This document shows positions 33,071-63,512 of a DNA stretch of 64,000 nt, in pieces. The stretch is taken from assembly GCA_001567115.1 (NCBI GenBank), contig LMZT01000003.1:1-64000 (forward strand), given 5' to 3'. How positions within the stretch are numbered: position 1 is the first letter of the stretch; each line of letters starts with the position of its first letter. The DNA is from Candidatus Hinthialibacteria bacterium OLB16 (GTDB lineage: Bacteria > Hinthialibacterota > Hinthialibacteria > OLB16). The translations under genes and the position numbers were made by a program. The notes below the pieces were generated by a model that worked only from the letters and a program-made list of their open reading frames with translations, made no database searches and was not told where the DNA came from.

Positions 33071-33847
33071 ATGAACGAAAGCCGGCGTGAATTTCTGACT
33101 GTTGGTGCAGCTTCCGCTCTGGGTGGAGCGCTTTTGAGCGGTGTGCTGAATGGAAAAGCCGAGGCCGCCGAAGGTTCCGGCCATGAGGGTCATCCGGGCC
33201 ATGCCAATGCCATGAAGGGCCTGTTCCCGGGTGCTGTGGATGCAGATGGGAAGTATGCCCTTCCACCGCTGCCTTATGCCTATGATGCCCTGGCTGAAGT
33301 CATCGATGAGCAGACCATGAAACTCCACCATGACAAACATCATGAAGGTTATGTCAAAGGACTCATCAAAGCTGAGGAAGAACTCGCCAAGGCACGCCAG
33401 TCTGGAAACTTCGAGTTCATTCAATACTGGTCCAGGCAGTCCGCTTTCCATGGGGGCGGCCATTTCCTGCACACCATGTTCTGGGCCTGCATGGCTCCTC
33501 CGGGACAAGGTGGGGAACCGGGCGAATCCTTCAAAAAGGGGATCGAAAAAGATTTCGGGTCGGTCGATGGAATGGTGGCTCAGCTCAAAGCCGCCACCAA
33601 ATCAGTCGAAGGCTCCGGGTGGGGGTTGCTGGCGTATTCGATCGCTGCCGGCAAGCTGGTGATCCTGCAGGCGCAGAACCAGCAGCTCCTGACCCAGTGG
33701 GCAAGCATCCCGCTGCTTGGAATCGATGTCTGGGAACATGCCTATTACCTCAAGTACCAGAACAACCGTGGCGCCTATGTGGATGCATTTCCAAAGATCA
33801 TCAACTGGAAGGGAGTCTCCGAGCGTTATTCCATGCTGGCGGGATAA
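33071..33847 (+). CDS. Tat-exported Fe/Mn superoxide dismutase
   Basis: 258 aa with a strong AAGGAG site. The N-terminus is a twin-arginine signal: SRREFLTVGAASALGGALL, then a His/Gly-rich linker. The body is Fe/Mn SOD: LPPLPYAYDALAEVID, LHHDKHHEGYV (first His ligand), FHGGGHFLHTMFW (second His), GWGLLAYSIAAGKL and IPLLGIDVWEHAYYLKYQN (Asp and last His). It converts superoxide to peroxide and oxygen outside the cytoplasm, which is less common than cytoplasmic SodA/SodB. The His/Gly stretch after the signal may bind metal. Confidence 0.94.
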   Translation: MNESRREFLTVGAASALGGALLSGVLNGKAEAAEGSGHEGHPGHANAMKGLFPGAVDADGKYALPPLPYAYDALAEVIDEQTMKLHHDKHHEGYVKGLIKAEEELAKARQSGNFEFIQYWSRQSAFHGGGHFLHTMFWACMAPPGQGGEPGESFKKGIEKDFGSVDGMVAQLKAATKSVEGSGWGLLAYSIAAGKLVILQAQNQQLLTQWASIPLLGIDVWEHAYYLKYQNNRGAYVDAFPKIINWKGVSERYSMLAG

Positions 33848-53353: not shown

Positions 53354-56300
53354 TCAATAATCCTGCCAATGCCCGACTGCGGCTGGAGGCACACCGATGG
53401 AAATCGTATGGGAAGCCTGGCTTTGAGGAACTCGGATCAGAATATAGGGGTTCTTTTTTCGCCATCCCTGTGAGGCAGCATCGATATCATTCACCTGCTC
53501 GAGAGGAATTCCATCCACCCATACCCCGCCGGCGGCAGGCATCACAAATCCAGCCACCAGGATTCGGCTGGTTTCCCCGATTGGGTTGCTGATTTCAATC
53601 GACACGAACTGCCGGGGAATGAACTGGGCTGTGCCGAGGTGGTCACAACGGGATGTGGCCAGCACAGTCCCGCTGTCCGAAGCATTCGGGCTGCCCATCT
53701 GAAGGGTTGTCAGATTCGGATTGCGGCCCTCCATGTAAAAGATATTTTTGAGGATGTTTTCAGGATTGATATACACCGGCTGGGGATAGTTCCCCACCAT
53801 ATTCCAGCCATCCGGATAGGTTCCGGAAAGCGGCCCAGGCTCGGCCACCTGCTGGTGCAGAGCGCTGACCGTGATGCCATCGGCTATCTGCTTCCAGGGA
53901 TAACTGGAGTCATGTTCCGCCAGCATGTTGAGGGCATGGGCATAGACCAGCCCATTCCACTGAACCGCTCTTCCGAACCAGGAACCCGTGTAAAAAGTCG
54001 CGCCGAAAACCGGCACACTGCCATATCGCATGGTGACCCACTCCGGGGGATTCCAGAACCAGACAAAAGGAAGCCCGGCCCGTGCCCAGTAGATGGCCGC
54101 ATAAAGATAATCGAGGCGTTGGAATGCCTCGTATCCCGCCACATAGGCCTCAACCGCTTGAGCGGCCGCCAGGATATCAGGCGTGTGCTGAGGAATCTCC
54201 CAGGTCTGCGCGGCGCGTGGGACTGAAAAGGTTTTCATGTGATCCAGAGATTTTTTCCCATTGGTCAGAAAGTCCGAACGTTTCAACTGCCGTCCAAGCG
54301 AGACCAGGCTGTAAGCACGGCGGGCTGTCCAGCCCAGTTCCCTCCCATTCGGGTCGACCAGGCTGGCATCTCCGAATGGGGGATAGGATCCATCGGATCG
54401 CATCTGCAGGGAGAGTCCAACTCCATAACTCACCATGCTGTCGATCGACCCATGCCAGTCCCCAAACACGAAGGGAGCCTGCCATCCGAAAATGTGCATA
54501 TTGGTCTGGCTGGACAAAATGCCCGGCGAGTTGTTGGCGCGATAGTAAGTGACTGCATCCAGGGCGCGATCCCTGGCTGCGGTACTCCCGGTTTCGAGGT
54601 AATCCAGCCACAGCAGGTAAGCAAGCCCGGGTGTGGGGCTGCAGGCAAATCCGGTCGCATGCTGCCAGCATCTGGTTTCACTTCCCCAGAGTGTGGTCAG
54701 CAGAGCCTGGCGGGATATTTCAATACTCTTTTCGAGGCTCTGGTTTATCGGGTAAGCAGCGGGCTGATGGCCATGCAGATCGAGCCAGTGATCCACCAGG
54801 CTGATGGTGTCTTTTGGAGCGGCATCCAGGATGATCCTGGCCTCGAGGTCCATCCAGCTGTTTTTCAGAAGGTCATAAGGGAGGCTGGCGGTCAGCTGAT
54901 TGGGGAGAACATGGTCCGGAATCGAGGGAAGAAACAGGCTCAGATAATGATTGTTCTGGTTTTCCAGAAAATTCGGCGAAGCAAAAGCGGCGGCCGGCAT
55001 GATCTTTCCAGGCGCCCACTCCTGGGTGGCCTCCCATGCCAGTCCGCACAATAACCCGTCATTGGAAAACACCCCCATGGAGGGAACTGTGATCCAGTGT
55101 GGATCCGGGGCAAATCGGATGTTGCCAGGGGCCGCGATATCCAGTGTCGAAGAAGAGACTTCCCCGCTGACCAGCCACTCGACACCCGGAAAGAGCGCCT
55201 GTTTCTGCTGGCTCCCGAAAGATCCCTCCCCCACTTTGAAGGTCAAAGGAGCAAATCGGCAAATCTGGAAGTCCTGCTGGTTTCCAGCCCCCAGACGGGC
55301 TGTGCAGTCGATTGTGCGCCCCTCTCTGGTTATCGAAAAATCCAACTGACAGGAGAGACCGGCATCTGAAAATCCGGAAACCTGCGGAGAGAGGCGGATT
55401 GATGAAAGATCCGGTTGATCCATCAGAATGCTCGCACTTCCGGGAAGCACATCCGCCAATACCGGATTGGACTGGCCCATCTGTTTGAGTGTAAGTGGTT
55501 CAAGGGTTGCCAGGACACCCGCCAGTTTCCATGGGGATTCCAGTGTGGTTCTGGCATACAGCATGACCGGTGAGTGTCCACCCGGATTGGCCAGCGCCAC
55601 GAGCCGTGCAAAGGCGGACTGAAGGACCAGGTTGCCACCCGCATCAAAGAAAGCGGTGGCATGGGAAGTCGATGGAATGCTTTCCACCGCGGGAGCCGGA
55701 TTGGAAATGAAAATGCGTTGTGACATCCGGTTATGCGCCGGATTGCCGATGAGATCGATGGTCAGTGTGGCTGTGTGAATGCCGGCGCTGGTGCCAGCCG
55801 ATACATTCCAGGTTGCGGCTGCCTCGCCTCCTTCATTCGGGATGTTTTCGAGGGAAGCGGGTCGCAAGGCTCCCGAAAGGGCCATTCCTGGGGACAGTTC
55901 GATCGAGAGAGTGGCCATGGGTATGGTTGCAGTCCCCATGTTTTTTACCCGGGCATGAATGGCAAAGGAGGAGTTTTTCGGAATCAGGGTCCGGTCGGGT
56001 CCAAAGGATTCGATCGCCAGGTGATTCCGGGAAGGAAGCAGCCAGATCGAATCGAACCGCACCTGGCTGCCGATCGAGCTGCTGTCGGTCGGATCGATAC
56101 GCATCCGGGTGACAGTTCCTTTCCAGGATGGATGCCCTTCGAGCACCACCTCATAAGGGTGCAAACTCCCATCCGCGGTCATCGGAAAGGTTTTCGATTT
56201 GGTTTCATTCCAGACAGGATCATCCGAGGTGATCCAGAACACCTGGGCCAGATTTCCGGCATGGACACGCATGTTGACAGCGATTGACCCGACCGAGAGT

Positions 56301-56968
56301 GCATTCAACGAAATTTGAGGCGAATGCATATAGGGATCCACTCCGGTCAGGCTGGTCTGGAGCAGCCCTCCACCTGTGGAGAGAGGCGCCAGGCTGTGGA
56401 TCGCGGTCCAGCCCTCCACATCCCCATTCACTCCAAAATCCCACATCAGAGCAGGTGGAGCTGATAGCGACACAAAATTATCGATCTGGATGGTCCCCCC
56501 ATTCGGGCCTCCACTGGCGGGATCGAGGCGGTAACGGGTTATCGTGCCGGTCCACTTCGAGTTCACACTCATATCGATGGTGTAGGTGTGCCACTGCCCA
56601 TCCGCTATCACTTCAAAGACGACACTCTTTTTCGCATCGATCGTGGGTTTGCTGCTGGTGGCAAAAAATATCTCACCGTTGCGATCGCCGGCAGTGGATT
56701 TCATGCGCAGGCTCAAATAACGGTAAGTGGAGGCGCTGAAAGAAACCACTGGGCTGGTCATGTAAGGGTCATTGTCTGTTATCTGGGTGGTCAGGACTCC
56801 CCCGCTGACAGAAAAAGGACTCAATGAGTGGGTGGGAGCCCAGCCTTGAGCATTTCCATTGGTGCTGAAATCAAAGCGTGAGGTTTCACTGGGGATAGCG
56901 CACTGGCCTCCAGCCGCGATCAGGCAGAGGGCCAAAAAAATCGATAATCTATGTGTGAACAAGGACAA
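53354..56968 (-). CDS. Large secreted protein, duplicated beta-sandwich, CARDB-like and alpha/alpha-barrel domains
   Basis: 1204 aa starting at TTG behind GGAGGGG. Signal peptide IFLALCLIAAGGQCA. Residues about 30-165 and 170-310 are a tandem repeat: FDFSTNGNAQGWAPTHSLSP / WDFGVNGDVEGWTAIHSLAP, then DPYMTSPVVSF / DPYMHSPQISL, which are CBM-like sandwiches. Residues about 315-430 are CARDB-like (FAIHARVKNMGTATIPMATL). The C-terminal 450 are helical with Trp/Tyr-rich turns (ATGFACSPTPGLAYLLWLDY, SDGSYPPFGD, LPFVWFWNPPEWVTM), like an alpha/alpha-barrel glycosidase or lyase. Catalytic residues cannot be named. Confidence 0.7.
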   Translation of the reverse strand: MSLFTHRLSIFLALCLIAAGGQCAIPSETSRFDFSTNGNAQGWAPTHSLSPFSVSGGVLTTQITDNDPYMTSPVVSFSASTYRYLSLRMKSTAGDRNGEIFFATSSKPTIDAKKSVVFEVIADGQWHTYTIDMSVNSKWTGTITRYRLDPASGGPNGGTIQIDNFVSLSAPPALMWDFGVNGDVEGWTAIHSLAPLSTGGGLLQTSLTGVDPYMHSPQISLNALSVGSIAVNMRVHAGNLAQVFWITSDDPVWNETKSKTFPMTADGSLHPYEVVLEGHPSWKGTVTRMRIDPTDSSSIGSQVRFDSIWLLPSRNHLAIESFGPDRTLIPKNSSFAIHARVKNMGTATIPMATLSIELSPGMALSGALRPASLENIPNEGGEAAATWNVSAGTSAGIHTATLTIDLIGNPAHNRMSQRIFISNPAPAVESIPSTSHATAFFDAGGNLVLQSAFARLVALANPGGHSPVMLYARTTLESPWKLAGVLATLEPLTLKQMGQSNPVLADVLPGSASILMDQPDLSSIRLSPQVSGFSDAGLSCQLDFSITREGRTIDCTARLGAGNQQDFQICRFAPLTFKVGEGSFGSQQKQALFPGVEWLVSGEVSSSTLDIAAPGNIRFAPDPHWITVPSMGVFSNDGLLCGLAWEATQEWAPGKIMPAAAFASPNFLENQNNHYLSLFLPSIPDHVLPNQLTASLPYDLLKNSWMDLEARIILDAAPKDTISLVDHWLDLHGHQPAAYPINQSLEKSIEISRQALLTTLWGSETRCWQHATGFACSPTPGLAYLLWLDYLETGSTAARDRALDAVTYYRANNSPGILSSQTNMHIFGWQAPFVFGDWHGSIDSMVSYGVGLSLQMRSDGSYPPFGDASLVDPNGRELGWTARRAYSLVSLGRQLKRSDFLTNGKKSLDHMKTFSVPRAAQTWEIPQHTPDILAAAQAVEAYVAGYEAFQRLDYLYAAIYWARAGLPFVWFWNPPEWVTMRYGSVPVFGATFYTGSWFGRAVQWNGLVYAHALNMLAEHDSSYPWKQIADGITVSALHQQVAEPGPLSGTYPDGWNMVGNYPQPVYINPENILKNIFYMEGRNPNLTTLQMGSPNASDSGTVLATSRCDHLGTAQFIPRQFVSIEISNPIGETSRILVAGFVMPAAGGVWVDGIPLEQVNDIDAASQGWRKKNPYILIRVPQSQASHTISIGVPPAAVGHWQDY

Positions 56969-59573: not shown

Positions 59574-61001
59574 TTACCAGATTCCAATCAGGGCTTCAGG
59601 GTGCCGGAGCCTTTCCGGCATCACAGGAGGGTACGAAATCAGCTGGTTTGGTTTTCCATCCGGCGGTTTGACCAGGTCAAAACGGTCATAAAGATCGCCT
59701 GCGGCAGTAAAAGCCTGGTATGAAAGGGTATTTCCATCGATCCGGATGATCTGAAACAGCTGGGTGTCTTCCGCGGCGCGAACCATCCAATCCATCCGAT
59801 GGAGATCATACATTTTAGGCCCACTGATCGAGGTCACATAAACAGTTCCTGATGTCGCGCACTGGACTGTGGTCCCGCCAGCCACATTCTGGCAGATCTG
59901 CTGGCCGCTGCGTGAATAACAATGCTCATGCCCCTGCAGGACCAGATCGACCTTGTAGTTGTCGAGCACTGGCAGCCACCTCTCGCGCAGGGCTGGATAA
60001 TCCCGATTGGATGAAGAGGGAAAGATCGGGTGATGGAAGGTAACCAGGGTCCATCTGGCGGGATTATCCGCCAGGACTGTGCTGAGCCATTCAGCCTGCC
60101 GCCTGAGCAGCCGGTTCGAATCCAGTGAGATGATTCGGACTCCCTGATAATCGAAATAGTATGCTGTTTCCTCAAGGTCGGGAGGCCCATTGAGGGGAAG
60201 GGTGAACTGGGCGCGCCAATGGGGGGTGAGCAGGCTGGCTTCGGAACCTTCGTTCCGATAATACTCATGATTCCCGGGGGTCACCACACTGGGGAAAGAA
60301 CCATTCAACCAGGCCCCGGCGGAGAACCACTGGCCCCATTCCACATCCCGCCACCAGTTGTTGACCAGGTCGCCGGCATGGAGCAGAAAACGGGCCTCCG
60401 GAGCTTTTGAAAAGGCCAGGCGGATCACCCGGGACCACAGGCTCCGGATATCGTTCTGGGAATCTCCCAGGTAGATGAATGAAAATGGGGCGGATTGATC
60501 GGAAGCTGTTGTGAACTGAAACCATTCCGACCAGTTCAGGCCATCCCCGACCCGGTACACATAACCTGTTTCAGGCAGGAGGTCTGTGAAGATAACGCTA
60601 TGATAAATAGCCGCTCCGGTTTCGGTCGAGAGGCTGGTGGTGGCGGAGGGAATTTGCAGGGCTTTCGAAACAAATCCCGGGCCATGTTCCGCACGTGCGA
60701 TCTGGGCATACCCCTGGGGGGCGGAGGTGTCGCTTCGCCAGGTGACAGCCATCATCCGGGAAGGATCTCCGACCGGGGTCAGGATAATGCGATCCGGAAC
60801 CGGTGATGGTTTGTAGATAATTTCATCGGGAACTTTGACCGGCTCTGACCGGCAGGGCATGGCCGTGAAGACCCCAGCCAGGAACAGGGCCATAAACACC
60901 TGCTGGATAATCACCAGAACACGAAGGCCTGCGCCCCGTGTCCGTTCACTGTGGAAGGAAGGGTTTGTGTGGAGGCTGCCTGTATCCCGATCAGTTTCCA
61001 T
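59574..61001 (-). CDS. Exported purple-acid-phosphatase-like metallophosphoesterase
   Basis: 475 aa. Signal-like helix about residues 25-50 (VLVIIQQVFMALFLAGVF). Then an N-terminal FnIII-like domain (DRIILTPVGDPSRMMAVTWRS, typical of purple acid phosphatases), then the catalytic core: FSFIYLGDSQNDIR (D), LLHAGDLVNNWW (GD), PSVVTPGNHEYYR (GNHE), TFHHPIF (H) and LVLQGHEHCYSRS (GHxH). Metal set complete. It releases phosphate from organic esters outside the cell. No SD is seen; the start overlaps the haloperoxidase stop by 11 nt. Confidence 0.88.
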   Translation of the reverse strand: METDRDTGSLHTNPSFHSERTRGAGLRVLVIIQQVFMALFLAGVFTAMPCRSEPVKVPDEIIYKPSPVPDRIILTPVGDPSRMMAVTWRSDTSAPQGYAQIARAEHGPGFVSKALQIPSATTSLSTETGAAIYHSVIFTDLLPETGYVYRVGDGLNWSEWFQFTTASDQSAPFSFIYLGDSQNDIRSLWSRVIRLAFSKAPEARFLLHAGDLVNNWWRDVEWGQWFSAGAWLNGSFPSVVTPGNHEYYRNEGSEASLLTPHWRAQFTLPLNGPPDLEETAYYFDYQGVRIISLDSNRLLRRQAEWLSTVLADNPARWTLVTFHHPIFPSSSNRDYPALRERWLPVLDNYKVDLVLQGHEHCYSRSGQQICQNVAGGTTVQCATSGTVYVTSISGPKMYDLHRMDWMVRAAEDTQLFQIIRIDGNTLSYQAFTAAGDLYDRFDLVKPPDGKPNQLISYPPVMPERLRHPEALIGIW

Positions 61002-62433
61002 GATGCCAGTTGGTCATGAGAAGCAGCAGGTCACTGTCATCGACCATACCATCATTGTTGATATCGCAACGCGGATCAAGCCGGGGGTTGTCATGCCCCT
61101 GAAAGAGGCCTGAAGCCCTCTGCCAGGCTGTTTTTCCAGCCAGAGTGCCGGTCGAGATGCCGTAACGGTTGGCATCCATAAAATGGATGCCGCCATACAG
61201 CCGCGAGATGCCCGCCTCTTCCGCAGCGGCGGTAAAGGTCGGCCAGAAGAGCACGATCGGAGGATCGAAGTGCCCCTGTTCGAAAGCAAGGTCAGCAATC
61301 TCGACAGAGCCGCCGAAGAAATCACTCCCGGTATAGGTGCGCATGATCTCAGCCCAGGCGGAGCTGAAAGTGCTGTGCCCGGAGGTGTATTCCGGGAAGG
61401 GCGGGGTCGGGTCACTGAATTTCTGATAGGGGTGCCATTCAGAAGCCAGGATCTGTTTGGTTCCCTGGTCCGGCCCGCCCCATGCAAGAATAGGAACATC
61501 ACCGAGATTGCGGATGGCTGTGATGGGACGGATATAGTCATAATGGAATTTCGCTTTCCAGCAGGTAATGCCGGCATCGAACATGGCATTATGAATGGCG
61601 AAGAACAGGCGGACATCATCATCGAGGCCATACCCTTTGATCTGCGAAACATAGGCGGTCAGGCCAGCCAGGAGCATCGGCGGGGTGCCTCGAGCCGGCC
61701 GCCAGTATTCAGCGATTGCTTTTTGAACTGGCGTCAATCCGGCGCTGAGGGTAATCAGCTGCTGGATCTGGTCATTCCAATGCTGGCTGCCGGGCTGGGC
61801 GGGTGGCGGCGGCAGGAACTGGCCCGGACCAGTGAGAGCGAAAGGGGTGACCAACCCCCAGTGAGGAGTCAGGGCGGTCTGGGTGACACCATTGACAACC
61901 AGGGGCTGCCAGGCATCCGGCTCAGTCGCGGGCCGTGGGGCATATCCAGTTGTATCGGCATAACCATGGGTCTGGTTGGAATTGTCATTGACCCGGAATT
62001 CCATGACAGCCTGAGCTGCCGCACGGCCGATCAGAGCTGCCTGGCTGGTGGCTGAAGGGAGGTACCCCTTCGAAGCCATAAAGTTGTTTCTCTCCTCTGG
62101 AAGCAGAGGCGCGAAGGTATTCAGAACAGAATAAATGGCATGGCTGATCGCTTCATTCCGCTCAGCCACTGTTCCACCGGTCACATCAAGGGTATTGCCG
62201 CTGTAAGCCCCCAATGCCACTGGATCATAGGCGGCCCAGGCATCATAAGCCGCACTGAAAACCGAAGACAGAACATGAGTCGAAGGGGTTGGGGCCGGTT
62301 TATTGGCGATGACTGTATCAATGATGACAGGATTCCATTCGGTGATGATAGAGATGGCACTGGCAGCCGAGATAAAGGATCCAAATTGAAGCAGCAGAAA
62401 GATGGACAGCCATGGGCGGAAATTTTTAATCAT
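60991..62433 (-). CDS. Exported vanadium-dependent haloperoxidase-like (PAP2) enzyme with dockerin-like tail
   Basis: 480 aa from ATG 62433 with GAGGAGGT 7 nt upstream. Signal peptide WLSIFLLLQFGSFISAASA. Vanadate-site motifs of the acid-phosphatase/haloperoxidase superfamily are present in order: KAKFHYDYIRPITAI (Lys, Arg-Pro), EYTSGHSTFSSAWA (Ser-Gly-His) and SRLYGGIHFMDANRYG (Arg, His). It also carries VLSSVFSAAYDAWAAYDP near the N-terminus, typical of bacterial VHPO. The last 30 residues DINNDGMVDDSDLLLLM are a classic dockerin-type calcium loop. It could oxidise halides with peroxide; activity is not proved. Confidence 0.88.
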   Translation of the reverse strand: MIKNFRPWLSIFLLLQFGSFISAASAISIITEWNPVIIDTVIANKPAPTPSTHVLSSVFSAAYDAWAAYDPVALGAYSGNTLDVTGGTVAERNEAISHAIYSVLNTFAPLLPEERNNFMASKGYLPSATSQAALIGRAAAQAVMEFRVNDNSNQTHGYADTTGYAPRPATEPDAWQPLVVNGVTQTALTPHWGLVTPFALTGPGQFLPPPPAQPGSQHWNDQIQQLITLSAGLTPVQKAIAEYWRPARGTPPMLLAGLTAYVSQIKGYGLDDDVRLFFAIHNAMFDAGITCWKAKFHYDYIRPITAIRNLGDVPILAWGGPDQGTKQILASEWHPYQKFSDPTPPFPEYTSGHSTFSSAWAEIMRTYTGSDFFGGSVEIADLAFEQGHFDPPIVLFWPTFTAAAEEAGISRLYGGIHFMDANRYGISTGTLAGKTAWQRASGLFQGHDNPRLDPRCDINNDGMVDDSDLLLLMTNWHHGN

Positions 62434-62494
62434 GGCAGACCTCCTCGAGGAGTTTTTCCTGATAAAAGCAGAATTGTCGATGCAGGGGAGGGTA

Positions 62495-62523
62495 AGATTA
62501 GAAACCCTCGGAATGGATGTCAA
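62495..62523 (-). promoter_or_regulatory. Promoter for the haloperoxidase gene
   Basis: Minus-strand TTGACA (62523-62518, perfect) and TAATCT (62500-62495) have a 17-bp spacer. They lie at the very end of the regulator gene, so the haloperoxidase can be transcribed separately, with a leader of about 55 nt. Confidence 0.6.
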
Positions 62524-63512
62524 CTTTTAATTGCATCACCTTCGGGCGGCTGGCGTTTCTTTGTGATTGTTATCTGGTTCCCTTTTTTGTTGTAAGAAAC
62601 CTCATCCATGAAACACGAGATCAGAAGAATTCCGCGCCCATGCAGCCGCGAGAGATCGGTTGGCTCGACTTTGCTGGTTCTGAGGTCGGGGGGATCGAAA
62701 CCTGGGCCGGGGTCGGTGATCCGGTAGGTGACCTGCTGCGGGGAAAGATCCATTTCAATGGTGATGGGACGAGAGGTGTATTCCGGATTCGCAAGGCGCT
62801 CATTCACGAGACGGTTGAATATGTCGCTACCAGTGTCGGTTTCCCGCAGGCCTGAAGGAACTTCCAGGCAGCCATAAAAAATGGCATTGGTCAGTGCTTC
62901 ATCGAGCGAGACTGTCACGAAGTAGCGTGCCGATTCATCGCAGATGCCGACCCCGACCAGCTTGTCGGTGAGGTAGTGGATGACCCCGGATTTGGTTTCG
63001 AGAAAAGGGGGAATATGGAACACCAGATTTTCGCTGACCAGGCAGGGCAGAACCCTTTGCGGGATTTCCCGGGCGCGTTTTCGTTTGAGAGATTTGTCGA
63101 CCACATCCAGAATCTCGACCAGGCGGAAAGGCTTGGTGATGAAGTTCGCGGCACCCAGCCGCAATGCCTCGATTGCCGTCTCGAGGCGGGCATAACCGGT
63201 GATGACCACAACCGGGATGTCTGGAAACTCATGGCGGGTAATATCCAGCAACCGTGCCCCATCCATCTCCGGCATTCGCAAATCGGTGATGACCAGATCG
63301 AAAGAGCTTGAGCGGAGTTTCTGGAGCGCCATGCGGCCATCGGAAGCGGTATCGACATCATAAGATCCGGCTTCATGGAGGGTGTCATGCAGCATTTCAC
63401 GGATAGATTCCTCATCATCCACGACCAGCAGGCGTGGTGTCCGGACTGGTGTGGGAGAGACCGGTTCCGGCAGAGGGAAAGGGTGCAGGTCTGGCTGGCC
63501 GGTCACATCCAT
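62520..63512 (-). CDS. Receiver domain fused to RsbW-like ATPase (response regulator/anti-sigma kinase)
   Basis: 330 aa. Residues about 25-145 are a receiver: LLVVDDEESIREML (acidic pair), LVITDLRMPEMDG (phospho-Asp), VVVITGYA and ITKPF (Lys). The second half (about 180-330) is a GHKL ATPase of the RsbW/anti-sigma type: SLDEALTNAIFYGCLEV (N-box), ITDPGPGFDPPDL (G1) and GRGILLISCFMDEV (G2). The family output is usually binding or phosphorylating partner-switch proteins. No partner gene is in view. Its start overlaps the GNAT gene by 10 nt. Confidence 0.9.
   Translation of the reverse strand: MDVTGQPDLHPFPLPEPVSPTPVRTPRLLVVDDEESIREMLHDTLHEAGSYDVDTASDGRMALQKLRSSSFDLVITDLRMPEMDGARLLDITRHEFPDIPVVVITGYARLETAIEALRLGAANFITKPFRLVEILDVVDKSLKRKRAREIPQRVLPCLVSENLVFHIPPFLETKSGVIHYLTDKLVGVGICDESARYFVTVSLDEALTNAIFYGCLEVPSGLRETDTGSDIFNRLVNERLANPEYTSRPITIEMDLSPQQVTYRITDPGPGFDPPDLRTSKVEPTDLSRLHGRGILLISCFMDEVSYNKKGNQITITKKRQPPEGDAIKS

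Follow-up and report, generated by a model that had tools for sequence, protein, structure and literature searches.

A candidate exported vanadium haloperoxidase with a lone calcium-loop tail in Candidatus Hinthialibacteria bacterium OLB16

Relation to described vanadium haloperoxidases

The closest described counterparts of the protein reported here are vanadium haloperoxidases (VHPOs) of known structure. NapH1 from Streptomyces (Protein Data Bank [PDB] entries 3w35 and 3w36) and XhnO11 (9l8x) share its two-bundle fold over 408 to 414 residues, with Z scores of 42 to 45 and 27 to 28% identity; they differ in having serine in place of its H353, and their aligned chains lack a calcium-loop tail of its kind. 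The bacterial vanadium iodoperoxidase (4cit and 4usz), which we take to be that of Zobellia galactanivorans, resembles it in fold (Z of about 40) and in an identical PPFPEYTSGHS stretch, but the overall identity is 22 to 24%. The vanadium-dependent haloperoxidase 9ptr is its best sequence match in the PDB (phmmer, E = 1.3e-47) and reads PEYPSAS where our protein reads PEYTSGH. The vanadium chloroperoxidase of Curvularia inaequalis (1vnc and variants) has the same fold (Z of about 31) but differs in its identity of about 20% and its chain of 609 residues, compared to 480. Dockerin type I (PF00404) shares one calcium loop of the D-x-N-x-D-G type with the C-terminal tail of the protein and differs in having two repeats; the tail has one, which scores below the cutoff.

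The protein is encoded in the window, the whole stretch of 64,000 nucleotides that was analyzed, by an open reading frame that starts with ATG and specifies 480 amino acids plus stop (Table 1). The genome comprises 4.05 Mb and is 92.6% complete, and one VHPO-type gene was found in it. Analysis of the protein sequence with Pfam revealed the second helical-bundle domain of chloroperoxidases (VCPO_2nd; 65 bits, cutoff 27) as well as DUF6851 (49.8 bits) and PAP2 (31.5 bits), both above their cutoffs. The protein matched no NCBIfam family at E ≤ 0.1, and Rfam revealed no family within the window. Searching the PDB with the single sequence returned 16 sequences at E ≤ 1, with haloperoxidases at the top (9ptr, 9l8x, NapH3, NapH1, 4cit, and fungal chloroperoxidase) and four weakest matches that were unrelated or a dockerin-bearing chain. 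With a profile of 7 relatives, 22 sequences in the PDB were matched (E ≤ 0.001), each of them named as a haloperoxidase or NapH homologue; acid phosphatases were not among them.

An AlphaFold2 model of the protein (37 sequences; mean pLDDT, 91.6; pTM, 0.89) was compared with known folds using Foldseek and VIA-align 2. Bacterial VHPOs ranked first with Z scores of 40 to 45 (XhnO11, 44.6; NapH3, 43.0; NapH1, 42.9; iodoperoxidase, 40.8), and the fungal chloroperoxidase reached about 31. The alignments with haloperoxidases, including the fungal enzyme, covered 367 to 414 residues. Algal and cyanobacterial bromoperoxidases scored 13.0 to 15.5, and acid phosphatases did not exceed 13.8, in alignments of about 200 residues. 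In the model, the double helical-bundle architecture is complete, unlike the single bundle of acid phosphatases. Sequence, profile, and fold uphold the assignment made in an earlier note on this DNA, and membership of the product in the VHPO family is virtually certain. The fold alone is no proof of function, and the gene most likely adds a member to an already known enzyme family.

Table 1. Features of the VHPO gene and its surroundings (window positions)
Feature	Position	Strand	Basis
VHPO coding sequence	60991..62433	(-)	Frame; Pfam; PDB relatives; AlphaFold2 model
Ribosome-binding site (GGAGG), 6 nt upstream of the ATG	62440..62444	(-)	Sequence
Probable Sec signal peptide, residues 1-26, ending in ASA	62356..62433	(-)	Read by eye; low pLDDT
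Motif 1, K295-x6-R302 (W292 three residues before Lys)	61528..61551	(-)	Sequence, alignment
Motif 2, F346-P-E-Y-T-S351-G352-H353	61375..61398	(-)	Sequence, alignment
Motif 3, R411-LYGGI-H417 (H417, predicted axial vanadate ligand)	61183..61203	(-)	Sequence, alignment
Lone calcium-loop tail, residues 457-480	60994..61065	(-)	Sequence; tail-model scores
Metallophosphoesterase with purple-acid-phosphatase N-terminal domain, probably exported	59574..61001	(-)	Pfam, sequence
TTGACA hexamer, probably the promoter claimed earlier; lacks an acceptable -10 partner	62518..62523	(-)	Sequence, consensus scan

Vanadate pocket and predicted activity

Alignment revealed a complete pocket set consisting of K295, R302, S351-G352-H353, and R411, together with the axial H417. 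All three vanadate motifs that had been claimed were found, and the family match is far beyond chance. The pocket residues presumably pair with K353, R360, S402, G403, H404, R490, and H496 in the fungal numbering. Motif 1 reads K295-x6-R302-P303 (KFHYDYIRP), and motif 2 contains PEYTSGH (residues 347 to 353). Across the 88 aligned sequences, that of the window among them, W292, K295, R302, P303, S351, H353, R411, and H417 are invariant, and G352 is conserved in 87, the exception being one G352A; these counts arise partly by construction, since 80 of the 88 loci were found with two motifs as search patterns. A scan of genome contigs with the single VHPO sequence revealed no relative; scanning with an alignment yielded 583 confirmed places, the best 80 of which were kept.

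The VHPO motif strings given in an excerpt of a published study are PxYxSGHA and LxxxxAxxRxxxGxHxxxD (PMC10427571). The first is matched over PxYxSGH, with serine replacing the last alanine. The second is not matched literally, as its L, A, and D positions are occupied by A403, G408, and A421, which speaks against the activity predicted below. Because the solved iodoperoxidase 4cit likewise deviates from this string, at L and D, the string is not diagnostic of the bacterial VHPO branch. W292 lies three residues before K295, and tryptophan at this place is described as the state of chlorinating VHPOs in an excerpt of PMC11871015. The same excerpt states that halide specificity is not traceable to a single residue, and therefore no halide is predicted for the protein.

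The N-terminus, read by eye, has a charged start, a hydrophobic run, and ASA at residues 24 to 26, and residues 1 to 10 and 16 to 21 of the model have low pLDDT. It reads as a Sec signal peptide, in agreement with the export signal noted earlier, and the protein is probably exported. With a probability of roughly 0.72, we consider the protein to be exported and to oxidize halide as a member of the NapH1/iodoperoxidase branch of bacterial VHPOs. After export via Sec, vanadate would be held in the pocket by K295, R302, S351, G352, and R411, with H417 as the axial ligand. The enzyme would take up hydrogen peroxide and, with H353 in the acid-base role, oxidize halide to hypohalous acid; this oxidant would act on whatever stands near the cell surface. 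Extracellular halogenation or oxidant formation, as suggested in the earlier note, is the best inference. If active, the enzyme would be a new source of environmental hypohalite, and it widens the range of secreted VHPOs with all pocket residues in place to include a class that has been sampled little (14 genomes). Aerobic life and peroxide are plausible for the host because its genome contains haem-copper oxidase genes. An iron/manganese superoxide dismutase (Pfam) with a twin-arginine-like N-terminus (by eye) is encoded 27 kb from the VHPO gene (window 33071-33847, plus strand) and is a possible exported peroxide source.

NapH3 is among the closest folds, and its PDB title names alpha-hydroxyketone rearrangement catalysis. 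The protein might, like NapH3, have a dedicated function in biosynthesis or redox-neutral chemistry instead of being a general oxidant maker. Profile alignments argue against such a role: the position of H353 is occupied by S or F in NapH3, NapH1, XhnO11, and 9ptr, whereas histidine is found in 4cit, whose PPFPEYTSGHS is identical to that of the window protein. The surface-type tail also speaks against it, as do the Pfam-scanned window proteins, in which no biosynthetic genes were seen beside the VHPO gene. Among the 27 window proteins scanned, which are part of the window's genes, no cluster for a halogenated product was seen, a point against halide oxidation as the role of the protein. No literature on NapH1 together with NapH3 was found. 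A NapH3-like role is highly unlikely in our view, and halide oxidation by an exported VHPO is preferred.

Neighboring genes and the claimed promoter

The metallophosphoesterase gene lies downstream of the VHPO gene, and its ATG is located inside the VHPO frame, giving an 11-base overlap. The earlier note had linked the VHPO to this secreted phosphatase through shared metal-phosphate chemistry. The adjacency stands, but the shared chemistry is not supported. When the window phosphatase was compared by phmmer (E ≤ 1e-3) with the open frames of the window and of 84 loci, its own gene was the sole match; a search of this kind would miss phosphatases of more distant families. A similar neighbor was found at 0 of 80 loci around VHPO relatives and in neither of the stretches from two other genomes, G002 and G001 (nothing at E ≤ 1 in L121 or L122). 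Since none of the 80 related loci has a similar neighbor, a common chemistry is not indicated. A conserved linkage between the two genes was rejected, and on present evidence the phosphatase neighbor is not meaningful.

The co-directional overlap also bears on another explanation, in which the protein would be a secreted phosphatase on a VHPO scaffold that frees phosphate together with the downstream metallophosphatase. VHPO pocket residues are common to PAP2 acid phosphatases, in which one histidine attacks the phosphate and a second protonates the leaving group. Phosphate would then occupy the pocket, H417 would attack, and H353 would protonate the leaving group. The PAP2 match, the sole one in the genome, is consistent with this, as is the acid-phosphatase fold contained within the model (Z up to 13.8), and the PDB title of 3bb0 names an apo-chloroperoxidase able to dephosphorylate. 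However, the whole-length sequence and fold are those of a VHPO and not of an acid phosphatase, and the related loci described above have no similar neighbor, although the G001 gene is cut by the contig end. Phosphatase activity is therefore improbable as the role of the protein, and the VHPO reading is retained.

Purple acid phosphatases carry GDxxY with an iron-binding tyrosine. The window phosphatase has GDLVN at this position, and the iron-binding tyrosine seems to be replaced by asparagine. At a locus from another lineage (L004, genome G017), two tandem VHPO genes are followed by a gene that resembles, by eye, a twin-arginine-type metallophosphoesterase; phmmer with the window phosphatase gave no match to it. 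A 1,204-residue protein, probably secreted, is encoded at 53354-56968 (minus strand) of the window and has no Pfam match at E ≤ 0.1.

Upstream of the VHPO gene, at 62520-63512, Pfam identified a response regulator that also contains a kinase-like ATPase domain. The TTGACA hexamer overlaps the stop codon of this gene, and the sole -10-like hexamer, TCTAAT, lies 15 bases from it and lacks A at position 2. A consensus scan revealed no site upstream of the VHPO gene and 2 sites in the whole region, compared to a mean of 2.2 in shuffled sequences. The statement that the gene has its own promoter was not borne out.

The C-terminal tail and its distribution

The last 24 residues of the VHPO contain one calcium loop, after which the protein stops. 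The "dockerin-like tail" of the earlier note is real, but it is a single repeat and not a two-repeat dockerin: Dockerin_1 of Pfam scores it at 13.7 bits (cutoff, 22.9). When a model was built from ten further tails encoded in this genome, leaving out that of the VHPO, the VHPO tail scored 35.9 bits, compared to 10.0 for the best of 2,000 shuffles. The genome contains 25 Dockerin_1 places at E ≤ 1, the VHPO tail included; 14 of the 19 other places fetched lie within 14 residues of the stop codon, and five of those span two repeats. A class-wide search with nine tails gave matches in 14 of 14 genomes, at least 418 places altogether, with 150 candidates scored in each of three genomes and nearness to the stop not being a criterion. 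The matches include 23 in the window genome and 79 and 102 in two other members of its family. Among VHPO relatives elsewhere, other C-terminal ends replace the lone tail. They are two-repeat dockerin-like in L106 and L098 and of a kind that we take to be PEP-CTERM-like in L045, L052, L114, and one of the L004 pair; most of the 88 aligned VHPOs have no extension past about 20 residues.

VHPO matches were found in 3 of the 14 class genomes, all three belonging to the family of the window genome; the one in G001 is cut by the contig end. G002 has two tandem VHPO genes (L003 and L121), both with the lone tail at the end (40.8 and 19.3 bits with the tail model). A tree of the catalytic part was computed by a quick method without bootstrap and rooted at the midpoint. 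In this tree, the window VHPO and the two G002 VHPOs are placed on opposite sides of a branch with an SH-aLRT of 99, and the lone tail thus occurs on both sides of the split. This is most simply explained if the tail is a property of the host lineage that became attached to two VHPO lineages. Each side is represented by a single complete genome, and the explanation is therefore a lead and not proof. Horizontal transfer of the gene from cyanobacteria was considered as a possibility: the tree row nearest to the window VHPO by path is cyanobacterial (L037), but the window VHPO is in none of the starred sets that comprise half the tree rows or fewer. No literature was found on VHPOs in Planctomycetes and metagenome-assembled genomes or on dockerins in Sumerlaeota.

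The tail would most likely be a class-specific surface-retention or sorting element. It is conceivable, though rather doubtful, that the class uses it as a distinct signal for surface sorting or anchoring, functional in the absence of a second dockerin repeat, and that two deep VHPO lineages acquired it independently, so that oxidant would be produced at the cell surface. Alternatively, the tail could be a genuine docking module for a cohesin scaffold on the cell surface. Cohesin matches occur in 14 of 14 class genomes; the window genome has one, barely above the cutoff, and other proteins of this genome bear two-repeat dockerins. However, the VHPO tail has a single repeat that falls short of the Dockerin_1 cutoff, and cohesin-like domains are also found outside cellulosomes. 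Docking to a scaffold is thus very unlikely, and a surface-retention or sorting role is favored. The tail is the more useful lead of this work, as a testable surface element common to many proteins of the class.

The protein with the cohesin-like domain is encoded at G000:C42:33585-33914 (L035) and scores 24.8 bits (Pfam cutoff, 24.1). Near the tandem VHPO genes of G002, a large protein (L121, 3306-6353) bears a similar tail at its end.
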